Shown here piece after piece: positions 47,438 through 51,204 of a DNA stretch of 64,000 nt. Under the pieces are notes generated by a model. The model searched no databases and was not told the origin of the DNA. It saw nothing but the letters and a program-made list of their open reading frames with translations. How positions within the stretch are numbered: the stretch's first letter is position 1; every line of letters begins with the position of its first letter. This stretch comes from an uncultured Fibrobacter sp. GTDB taxonomy: Bacteria; Fibrobacterota; Fibrobacteria; Fibrobacterales; Fibrobacteraceae. The stretch is taken from assembly GCA_946405515.1 (NCBI GenBank), contig CAMJHM010000006.1, positions 1-64,000 of the forward strand, given 5' to 3'. The translations under genes were made by a program, and so were the position numbers.

Positions 47438-48190
47438 TTACTTCCCAGCGATTTCGTTAGCCTTCGCCTCGATTTCGGCGATGGCTTTTTTGCGGCCTTC
47501 GGCAGAGTTTTCGTTGCTGAGCACGATGTTCACGAACACGGAACCTGCGACCACGGCGTACACGTGCTTGCTGAGCACCTTGGACTGTTCGCCGTTACGG
47601 ATGCCGAATCCGCCGAGCACCTTCGCGCCCCCCTTACCGACCGTGTCGATAAAGTCGAGTGTCGCCTGGTCAATCGTGGTTTCGCTACCGGTCGTACCCG
47701 CGCGGAGAGCCGCATAGATGTACTTGAACCCTGCAGAAGCCATCGATTCGAGGCGTTCCTTCGTCATGGAAGGTGCTGCCACCGGGATGTTTTCGAGACC
47801 GTACTTCTTACAAGCTTCGGTGAGGCCTTCGTCGCAATCAAACGGCAGGTCGGGAATAATGCAGGCGGAAACGCCAGCGTCCTTGCACATCTTCACGAAG
47901 TTCTCGATGCCCGGAGTGAAGGCAAGCGAGCCATAGGTCATGATGTAGATGGGCGTTTCGGGGTGGCGTTCGTGAATTTTCTTCACGATTTCGAGTCCCT
48001 GCTTGGTGGAAAAGCCCTTTTCCAGTGCAACAGTGGATGCCGTCTGGATGGCGGGACCGTCGGCGCTCGGATCGCTGAAGGCAAGCTGAATTTCAAGGAT
48101 GTTGGCGCCACCCTTCACGAGGGCGTCGGCGATGGCGATAGAAGTTTCTGCGTCCGGGAACCCGGCAATGAGATGGGACATTAAGTTCAT
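47438..48190 (-). CDS. trpA: Tryptophan synthase alpha chain
   Basis: LIAGFPDAETSIAIADALVKGGANILEIQLAFSDPSADGPAIQ; IPDLPFDCDEG. Confidence 0.95.
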   Translation of the reverse strand: MNLMSHLIAGFPDAETSIAIADALVKGGANILEIQLAFSDPSADGPAIQTASTVALEKGFSTKQGLEIVKKIHERHPETPIYIMTYGSLAFTPGIENFVKMCKDAGVSACIIPDLPFDCDEGLTEACKKYGLENIPVAAPSMTKERLESMASAGFKYIYAALRAGTTGSETTIDQATLDFIDTVGKGGAKVLGGFGIRNGEQSKVLSKHVYAVVAGSVFVNIVLSNENSAEGRKKAIAEIEAKANEIAGK

Positions 48191-48194
48191 AGCT

Positions 48195-48389
48195 TAGACG
48201 ATAGACCGCTTCGCTGGTAGACGATAGACGAAAGATCTTAATTTCAATCTACTTCATCTAGAAGCATTGCTTGGTCTTCTCCTTATAGTTAAAGTTTAAT
48301 TGTTTATTAATTGGATTTATCCTTAAAATACGAGAAAATGAAAATTCTTTCGTCTTTCGTCTGTAGGACCGAAGGTCCGTTCTTTCGTC
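48195..48389. repeat. Intergenic heptad-repeat element H5 between trpB and trpA
   Basis: TAGACGA/TAGACCG (48195-48208), TAGACGA x2 (48218-48231); TTTCGTC at 48348, 48355, 48383 (all multiples of 7 apart) around palindrome GGACCGAAGGTCC. Confidence 0.75.
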
Positions 48390-49657
48390 TAGTTGTTCAT
48401 TATCTCCGCGTCGTGGATGTCTTCGTTATTTTCAAGGCGCTTGAGTTCCGCCTTCAGGAATTCCTTCCACTTTTCGGGGCGGAACACCGGGCTCGTGATA
48501 AAGATGTCCTTGTCGCCGCGACCACTCATGTTGATGACGAGCGCCTTGTCCTTCGGGAGTTCCTTCGCAATCTTCATGGCGGCGGCACCGGCGTGTGCGC
48601 TTTCGAGTGCGAACAAAATGCCTTCGTTGCGGGCGAAGAACTTGACCGCATCCAAGGCTTCCTTGTCAAGGATGCTCGTGAATTCCACACGTCCCGATTC
48701 ACCGAGGGCGGCAAGCTGCGGGCCGATACCCATGTAGTCAAGCCCTGCAGAAATGGAGCGGGTCGGCAGCGACTGGCCGTCTTCATCGATGAGGAAGCGG
48801 CTCTTGTAACCCTGCACAATTCCTTCGCGGCTCGCGTTACCCGTCATGCGGGAAGCGTTCTCGCCCATGTTCGGGCCGATGCCACCGGCTTCTGCACCGA
48901 TCAGGCGCACGTTCTTGTCTTCGATAAACGGAGTGAACACGCCGATGGAGTTGCTTCCGCCACCCACGCAGGCGACAACCGCGGCAATGTCGATGTTGCG
49001 CTCGGCAGCCTGGCGCTTGACTTCTTCGCCGATGATAGACTGGAACGTGCGAACGATATCCGGGAACGGGGCAGGGCCGAGAGCGGAACCGAGCACATAG
49101 TGCGTGTTCTTGAAATTCGTGGCCCAGTCGCGCATGGCTTCGTTCACGGCATCCTTTAAAGTGCGGCTGCCGCTCGTAACCGGTACGACCTTCGCCCCAT
49201 ACATTTCCATGGTAGCTACGTTCGGCTGTTGGCGACGCACGTCAACCTCGCCCATGTACACGACGCATTCGAGGCCGAGTTTGGCACAGGCGGCTGCGGT
49301 GGCGAGCCCGTGCTGGCCGGCACCCGTCTCCGCGATAATGCGGGTCTTGCCCATCTTCTTGGCAAGCAAGCACTGACCGATAGCGTTGTTGATCTTGTGG
49401 GCGCCCGTGTTGGCAAGGCCTTCGAGCTTGATGTAGATCTGCGCACCGCCCAGAAGTTCGGTCGCCGTCGGGGCAAAGTACAGCGGAGTCTCGCGGCCAA
49501 TATAGTCGCGCTGGATAATGCGGAGTTCTTCGAGGAATTCCGGATCGTGGATGTACTTGTTGAATGCCGCTTCGAGGTCGTCGAGCGGGCGGCGGATGAT
49601 TTCGGCAACGTACTTGCCGCCGAACTTGTCAAAGAAACCGTTGTTGGAGGTAATCAT
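48389..49657 (-). CDS. trpB: Tryptophan synthase beta chain
   Basis: LEGLANTGAHKINNAIGQCLLAKKMGKTRIIAETGAGQHGLATAAACA; VGGGSNSIGVFTPFI. Confidence 0.96.
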   Translation of the reverse strand: MITSNNGFFDKFGGKYVAEIIRRPLDDLEAAFNKYIHDPEFLEELRIIQRDYIGRETPLYFAPTATELLGGAQIYIKLEGLANTGAHKINNAIGQCLLAKKMGKTRIIAETGAGQHGLATAAACAKLGLECVVYMGEVDVRRQQPNVATMEMYGAKVVPVTSGSRTLKDAVNEAMRDWATNFKNTHYVLGSALGPAPFPDIVRTFQSIIGEEVKRQAAERNIDIAAVVACVGGGSNSIGVFTPFIEDKNVRLIGAEAGGIGPNMGENASRMTGNASREGIVQGYKSRFLIDEDGQSLPTRSISAGLDYMGIGPQLAALGESGRVEFTSILDKEALDAVKFFARNEGILFALESAHAGAAAMKIAKELPKDKALVINMSGRGDKDIFITSPVFRPEKWKEFLKAELKRLENNEDIHDAEIMNN

Positions 49658-49692
49658 AGTGGTTAGTAAACAGTGGTTGGTGATTAGTGGCT
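49658..49692. repeat. Heptad-repeat element H6 adjoining the trpB start codon
   Basis: AGTGGTT AGTAAAC AGTGGTT GGTGATT AGTGGCT, exact 7-bp phase. Confidence 0.75.
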
Positions 49693-49704
49693 GGGGTTAA
49701 ACGG

Positions 49705-49741
49705 AAAAAAAATTAAGGCTTTCGGAGAGTCCGAAAGCCTT
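49705..49741 (-). terminator. trp attenuator terminator, module 2 (trpB-proximal)
   Basis: Minus strand AAGGCTTTCGGactctCCGAAAGCCTTAATTTTTTTT. Confidence 0.9.
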
Positions 49742-49776
49742 TTGCAAACACTTGATGAAATCAGCAAAACCGGACT

Positions 49777-49833
49777 CTATGTTCTAGAGCCCCACCACCA
49801 ACGGTTGAAACGGATTGCTTCATTCATCTTCAT
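49777..49833 (-). CDS. trpL: trp leader peptide MKMNEAIRFNRWWWGSRT (attenuator module 2)
   Basis: Three consecutive TGG codons (49792-49800) followed by stop and terminator upstream of trpB. Confidence 0.88.
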   Translation of the reverse strand: MKMNEAIRFNRWWWGSRT

Positions 49834-49840
49834 GGCGCAT

Positions 49841-49869
49841 AATTTAGGAATGTCTTTTTTTGCTGGCAA
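49841..49869 (-). promoter_or_regulatory. Promoter of attenuator module 2
   Basis: TTGCCA-N17-TAAATT on the minus strand; aligns with the module 1 promoter. Confidence 0.5.
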
Positions 49870-49890
49870 GGGGTAGCCTTCAGAAAAGGC

Positions 49891-49928
49891 AAAAAAATTG
49901 AAGGCTTTCGGCAGTTCCGAAAGCCTTC
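49891..49928 (-). terminator. Attenuator terminator, module 1 (trpB-distal)
   Basis: Minus strand GAAGGCTTTCGGaactgCCGAAAGCCTTCAATTTTTTT. Confidence 0.85.
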
Positions 49929-50035
49929 TGTTAAACACTTGATGAAATTGGCAAAACCAAAATCCCGTTTCGAGAACTTCATCGCAAGCTGCGCAAGCGT
50001 CGAAGCGGATTGCCAATTTCATCTTTATGGTAAGC

Positions 50036-50064
50036 AATATATATACTAATTCGTTGTCTGTCAA
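50036..50064 (-). promoter_or_regulatory. trp promoter (attenuator module 1)
   Basis: TTGACA-N17-TATATT on the minus strand. Confidence 0.75.
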
Positions 50065-50169
50065 TAGGTTATAAACAGATTTTTGTAAAAAAATATTACG
50101 ATTACACCCAAATTTCGCATTAAATGCAATAAAGCGCATTTTCCTTTTGTCTATATATAATTTTGTCGT

Positions 50170-51204
50170 TTAAAAAAATCCTCTCAATAATTTTGCCATA
50201 TCCGGCGGGAAGTCGTGATTTTCAAATTCCCTGGGTTCTTCCCAATATGGGAGCAAAATCTGCACCTTATATGCAAAAAGCATCTGGTGATGCGCCCCCA
50301 AAACCCGGTAGTCTTCTTCACTCAGCTCTCCGCGGGTCATCTTGTCGTAATAGACTCCCCCATGGCTATAAAGGCGGTCGCCCACGATAGGGAAACCCAA
50401 TTCCAGCAGATGCGCACGAATCTGGTGTTTGCGCCCGGTCAAAAGTTCAGCCTCGACCACGTCGAGCATCCCCAAGTCCGGGTGTTCTACCGAGAATAGC
50501 TTGCGAAAGCGCGTATGGCAGGGCTTACCGTCATAAAAATGGTGCATGCGCAGCCGAATCGGGTCGGTAGGATCTTCGCGCAGCGGCATTTCGCAATCCA
50601 CGACGCCATCCTTATCCACCGAAACACGCCGACCGAGTTTCGCAAAAAAATGTTCTTCAGGAACAGGCCCGTCGGGGAAGCCCGCAGGCACGACAGCCAA
50701 GTAGAACTTGCGCAACAAAATCCGGTCCAGGTTTTTCTGGAAACGGGACGCCGTCGAGGCATCCTTCGCAAACAGCATGAGTCCGCCAGTATCGCGGTCG
50801 AGCCGGTGCATCGGGGTTGCCGACTCGCAGTCAAAGGCCCTGCGGATAATTGCAGCAAAGGTGTTGTAGAAAATACGGCCCGTATGGTGAACTGGGACAC
50901 CCGCCGGTTTTGCCACCAGCAAAAACTCGTCATCCTCGAAAACCGTCGTGAAGTTAGTCGGGACCTCAGGCTCGGTATAGTTCTCCACGTGGTAGACCAC
51001 TTTGTCGCCACGATGCGCGATAGACTCTACAGTGGCGACCTCGCCGTTCAACGTCACGAGTCCGCGTGTCAAACGGTCAAACCAGTCTTCGCGACTGTGA
51101 TAGGTAAAACGCTCGCACAGGGAATCCAACAAAAAGCGTCCGTCCTGTTCAGGGCGAATTTCGCTTTCGAAGAACATATCCGATGGGGCTTTCTCGTACT
51201 GCAT
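50170..51204 (-). CDS. RluA-family pseudouridine synthase
   Basis: LLVAKPAGVPVHHTGRI; PMHRLDRDTGGLMLFAKD; LLTGRKHQIRAHLLELGFPIVGDRLY. Confidence 0.93.
   Translation of the reverse strand: MQYEKAPSDMFFESEIRPEQDGRFLLDSLCERFTYHSREDWFDRLTRGLVTLNGEVATVESIAHRGDKVVYHVENYTEPEVPTNFTTVFEDDEFLLVAKPAGVPVHHTGRIFYNTFAAIIRRAFDCESATPMHRLDRDTGGLMLFAKDASTASRFQKNLDRILLRKFYLAVVPAGFPDGPVPEEHFFAKLGRRVSVDKDGVVDCEMPLREDPTDPIRLRMHHFYDGKPCHTRFRKLFSVEHPDLGMLDVVEAELLTGRKHQIRAHLLELGFPIVGDRLYSHGGVYYDKMTRGELSEEDYRVLGAHHQMLFAYKVQILLPYWEEPREFENHDFPPDMAKLLRGFF

Follow-up and report, generated by a model that had tools for sequence, protein, structure and literature searches.

In the window, by which we mean the whole 64,000-nt stretch of rumen Fibrobacter DNA that was analyzed, the minus strand carries, in order, a gene for an RluA-family pseudouridine synthase, two promoter-leader-terminator modules, trpB, and trpA. 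We refer to the distal module as M1 and to the trpB-proximal module as M2. The genes that surround them are as follows (all positions are those of the window).

50170-51204, (-) strand: RluA-family pseudouridine synthase gene, 5′ of M1
48389..49657, (-) strand: trpB (TIGR00263, E 4.8e-164)
47438..48190, (-) strand: trpA (TIGR00262, E 6e-57)

A sequence-only reading of this DNA had described the region as a tandemly duplicated trp attenuator. The arrangement itself is borne out, in that trpBA is preceded by two tandem modules, with the promoters, terminators, and M2 leader located as claimed, and both terminators are the best-scoring ones of the region. The two modules had also been said to align with each other, and indeed M2 was recovered at an E value of about 1e-17 when its genome was searched with an M1 covariance model, which establishes that their homology is real. 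Folding of each module gave structures that beat all 200 dinucleotide shuffles (z -3.35 for M2 and -5.93 for M1). A search of positions 49640-50200 at E values up to 1 yielded no Rfam family match for either module, and a study of Fibrobacter trp regulation was not found in the literature. Elsewhere in the window reside a tmRNA gene (RF00023, 11198-11557, (+) strand) and a Fibro-purF motif (RF02974, 61966-62040, (+) strand, 98.5 bits).

Comparison with other Fibrobacter trp loci, as the sequence-only reading had proposed, separated the two modules: attenuator parts are conserved among 22 distinct M2 copies from within the genus but not among 48 M1 homologues from 47 genomes. The parts of M2 in the window are listed below.

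49841..49869, (-) strand: M2 promoter TTGCCA-N17-TAAATT, conserved in M2 copies, with a 7-nt (6-8) gap to the leader ATG
49777..49833, (-) strand: M2 leader peptide gene, encoding MKMNEAIRFNRWWWGSRT and a stop, with WWW or WW in the copies and the stop in a hairpin
49772..49792, (-) strand: M2 1:2 hairpin GGGCTCTAGAACATAGAGTCC, with the stop codon inside (by folding)
49771..49778, (-) strand: M2 antiterminator arm AGAGTCCG, forming 8 bp with 49733-49726 (CGGACTCT)
49715..49741, (-) strand: M2 intrinsic terminator (by terminator search)

The 22 distinct copies encode peptides resembling MKMNSAIRFNRWWWGSTK before the stop, with three successive Trp codons (WWW) in 20 copies and two (WW) in the other 2, and the stop falls in the hairpin that follows. 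Because the leader ATG comes only 7 nt (6-8) past a TTGCCA-N17-(TAAATT-like) promoter, the leader mRNA is almost devoid of a 5′ UTR and is probably leaderless. The candidate antiterminator that had been proposed to compete with the M2 terminator is likewise upheld, since the 3′ arm of the 1:2 hairpin pairs with the 5′ arm of the terminator through a helix of 7 to 8 bp in 22/22 copies (mean shuffle p 0.025). In two genomes (G009 and G024), this pairing carries a compensated change (GAGUCUGG/CCAGACUC). With all of the expected sequence features in place, M2 can be classed, on these comparisons, as a Trp attenuator of the classical, ribosome-mediated type. What is established about trp attenuation leads us to infer that a shortage of Trp-tRNA would stall the ribosome on the (nearly) leaderless WWW peptide and thereby free AGAGUCCG, which would pair with CGGACUC(U) and block the terminator, and that plentiful Trp would let the ribosome get to the UAG in the hairpin, with termination as the outcome. 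One genome (G103, C4:163322-163453) has a deletion that removed the M2 -10 element, start codon, and P1 5′ arm and left M1 intact; this could be a variant in which M2 has been damaged naturally, or the assembly may be wrong here.

The genus has three predicted leaderless attenuators of the same build, located before trpBA (M2), trpE, and trpCF. The leader peptides of the latter two are MMNFVTSATMNRRWWRGL and MQIK...NRWWWGS, respectively, each followed by a stop. The trpE attenuator came to light when leaderless WW leaders were scanned for broadly, although that scan was otherwise too noisy. Two further candidate leader peptides, MDFGSYGKTWW and MEYGAYGRTWW, were rejected because they are the starts of long proteins.

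M1 has a different set of parts. Its predicted RNA comprises an extended P1 stem, a pair of inner hairpins, the linker AGUGUUU, and a terminator, and the RNA start site was placed by spacing from the promoter.

50036..50064, (-) strand: M1 promoter TTGACA-N17-TATATT, 11/12 consensus, with the spacer conserved as well
49893..50028, (-) strand: M1 RNA of about 135 nt, 5′-AUAAAGAUGAAAUUGG..., a candidate stand-alone small RNA (covariance model R1, 136.7 bits; covariation; gene context)
50010..50023, (-) strand: M1 P1 stem 5′ arm GATGAAATTGGCAA, perfectly paired with 49954-49941
49941..49954, (-) strand: M1 P1 stem 3′ arm TTGCCAATTTCATC, perfectly paired with the 5′ arm
49933..49947, (-) strand: M1 invariant block TTTCATC[A/C/T]AGTGTTT (covering the P1 end and the single-stranded linker), identical in 48/48 copies bar one variable base
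49900..49928, (-) strand: M1 intrinsic terminator, whose sequence has turned over extensively in relatives, with compensatory changes

When four genomes were searched with the extended M1 promoter motif, the full fit was found at M1 only, and two further sites had three mismatches.

The features that make M2 an attenuator are gone from M1. Where M2 has its start codon, M1 has ATA, ATT, or GTA, and ATG in 0/48 copies; tandem Trp codons (WW) are also found in 0/48, the stop before the linker is missing in 19/48, and the frame is disrupted by 1-nt indels and early stops. The leader peptide formerly assigned to M1 does not hold up in the window either, where its frame has no stop before M2 and stays open for 120 codons, through the terminator and into the M2 leader. 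The longest helix between the M1 body and the terminator 5′ arm is mostly 4 to 6 bp, at chance level (mean shuffle p 0.47). This longest-helix measure replaced a duplex-energy measure of antitermination, for which the extracted terminator arm had omitted the loop part of the pairing. A competing pairing that had been suggested for M1, GTTCtCGAAA/TTTCGGAAC, is limited to the source genome and its close relatives and is not conserved. Because the leader start codon, the Trp codons, and the antiterminator have been lost, M1 is without a switch, and its sequence identifies it as something other than a Trp attenuator. One point counts against reading M1 as a small RNA (sRNA), namely that one M1 subtype retains in many genomes a 15-codon GTG frame whose stop lies in the P3 loop.

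Our sample covers one genus, represented mostly by metagenome-assembled genomes (MAGs), and the named relatives are rumen Fibrobacter MAGs. Among the 80 genomes of the genus that were searched, M1 was found in 47 by script (48 copies) and in G062, G087, and G091 by covariance model. Within these genomes M1 is restricted to the surroundings of the trp locus, and outside the genus no convincing match was found. A contig titled Bacteroidales (JAGCNN010000173.1) has a Fibrobacter M1-M2 locus and probably comes from a misnamed or contaminated MAG. Five incomplete genomes of the genus (G015, G020, G021, G023, and G031) gave no match for trpB, reflecting either incompleteness or Trp auxotrophy.

M1 usually lies between trpCF and trpBA. 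In most genomes the next element downstream of it is M2-trpBA or gene X, which encodes a DHH/DHHA2 manganese-pyrophosphatase-like lipoprotein and sits between M1 and M2 in some genomes; cis effects of M1 through read-through are therefore possible. In G006 (L065 2761-6242), M1 occurs twice, and the genes after it, X′ and X, are both pyrophosphatase-like and related to each other. Most M1-bearing genomes are without X, and M1 is kept in most X-less genomes. When the presence of X is mapped on the trpB tree, at least six state changes are required, on a tree that is weakly or partly resolved and may mix recombinant histories; the numbers of independent M1 and X losses are approximate. In G001, G062, G067, and G085, an opposite-strand gene lies between M1-X and M2-trpB. 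In four genomes the genes that come next after M1 are convergent with it (G061, G087, G096, and G098); those of G061 belong to the ATP synthase subunit C family (PF00137), and trpB is located elsewhere in this genome. M1 is thus free-standing and not obligately a leader, and "RNA gene" is its most apt description, because it persists where there is no gene to lead. Since M1 lacks the start codon, tandem Trp codons, frame conservation, and antiterminator that define an attenuator and is not always upstream of trpB, the earlier description is right as to tandem modules and, for M2, as to a trp attenuator, but wrong in extending the latter term to M1.

An alternative is that M1 is a cis-regulatory leader of X, either a riboswitch or a protein-bound element, and by leftover also of trpBA. 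X adjoins M1 in the clade of G003, G010, G019, G036, and G100, where the M1 terminator ends about 15 to 20 nt before the X start, and the two M1 copies of G006 are matched by two X genes. However, M1 is conserved although X is absent from most of the genomes that carry it, and neither X nor trpB directly follows M1 on the same strand in G061, G087, G096, and G098. The inner loops moreover differ between M1 subtypes, unlike a strictly conserved ligand pocket, and M1 has no Rfam match. We consider a leader function for X unlikely.

Conservation of M1 as a structured RNA was evident from several measures. Over 49 distinct sequences, 98.6% of cells in P1 and the terminator are paired, and the covariation score of these elements is 0.283, compared to 0.158 when shuffled and at most 0.071 when slid. 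The P1 arms of each M1 pair better with each other than permuted arms do (0/300 permutations as good), and the M1 body folds better than shuffled sequence in 48/48 copies, with a mean z of -3.5. There are two M1 subtypes, distinguished by their inner hairpins, and the terminators diverge greatly in sequence, yet all remain terminators. M1 combines its own conserved promoter and intrinsic terminator with a conserved structure and no conserved reading frame. A decaying remnant, or a mere basal promoter or insulator between transcription units, would account for the loss of all ancestral switching parts and for the decay of the reading frame, but not for the superior folding of every copy or for a promoter, P1 covariation, terminator compensation, and AGUGUUU linker that are held through large sequence turnover, and we regard this explanation as quite improbable. 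Least probable is that M1 works as another ribosome-mediated attenuator, placed serially with M2 and responding to Trp or a different amino acid, since M1, despite its homology to M2, its own promoter and terminator, and the short frame VKSVIHSDRLREGFP (with stop) kept by one subtype in many genomes, has no start codon, tandem regulatory codons, or conserved antiterminator, has a broken frame in about 40% of copies, and is retained where no gene comes after it.

The invariant block of M1 (UUUCAUC[A/C/U]AGUGUUU) is also present in the M2 of 43/46 M1-carrying genomes. The M2 linker AAGUGUUU occurs in none of the M1-less genomes read (nominal Fisher p 8e-9, a value confounded by shared descent); the M2 copies of G009, G012, G024, G025, G028, G033, G035, G063, G069, G072, and G093 were noted with respect to this linker. 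Its presence together with M1 and its divergence in the M1-less genomes read may reflect functional coupling or shared descent. A co-evolved duplex between M1 and M2 was considered and rejected: the M1 5′ arm and M2 3′ arm give -18.9 kcal/mol, but 57/300 permutations between genomes are as low. A search of eight genomes for the reverse complement of the linker returned M1, M2, and scattered matches with two mismatches only, and no shared target.

On balance, we favor the interpretation that M1 is a stand-alone, translation-dead structured RNA that arose by attenuator duplication and most likely acts in trans as an sRNA. M1 would have been born by duplication of M2 within the genus and would then have lost the leader start codon, Trp codons, and antiterminator. 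It would thus be left without a switch, and most transcripts from its predicted promoter would stop at the terminator, giving an RNA of about 135 nt. Selection would keep the promoter, the structured body, the fixed single-stranded linker, and the terminator, the arrangement found in sRNA genes. The more specific proposition that M1 is a dedicated trans-acting sRNA gene, in which a terminated leader RNA was freed from switch and peptide and kept for the RNA alone, is advanced tentatively, at slightly less than an even chance. Trans action is inferred by analogy with S. meliloti rnTrpL, an attenuator-derived sRNA that acts in trans on trpDC mRNA (PMC7298713).

M2 resembles the trpL attenuators of enterobacteria and rhizobia in its short WWW peptide, in the stop located in the 1:2 hairpin, and in an antiterminator and terminator that exclude each other. 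The leader begins at or adjacent to the predicted 5′ end of the transcript, just as rnTrpL of S. meliloti begins with the ATG of trpL (PMC7298713). Fibrobacter differs from these systems in that trpE, trpCF, and trpBA each have their own copy and in that M1 is without the defining parts. Like rnTrpL, M1 has the body of a trp-attenuator RNA ended by its own terminator; however, rnTrpL remains a working attenuator and encodes peTrpL (PMC7298713), whereas M1 is a separate duplicate that neither switches nor encodes a conserved peptide. Salmonella mgtCBR also has a pair of serial attenuator units preceding a single operon, but these are within one leader and sense different signals (PMC3641672), whereas each of the Fibrobacter modules has a promoter to itself and only M2 can plausibly switch. 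The Fibro-purF motif is likewise a structured RNA of Fibrobacter, but its sequence is unrelated to M1 and M2.

Attenuator RNAs such as rnTrpL moonlight in trans, and to our knowledge the origin of small RNA genes from cis-regulatory leaders is mostly a matter of conjecture. About 50 genomes of the single genus Fibrobacter contain both a parent attenuator and its non-switching copy, and natural variants exist in which downstream genes have been gained, lost, or inverted; how an attenuator becomes an sRNA gene can therefore be tested directly. The findings also add a three-attenuator, leaderless trp regulon for Fibrobacterota. If our interpretation of M1 is true, the genus would possess a widely distributed sRNA gene derived from duplication of a trp attenuator, with the working attenuator alongside for comparison.
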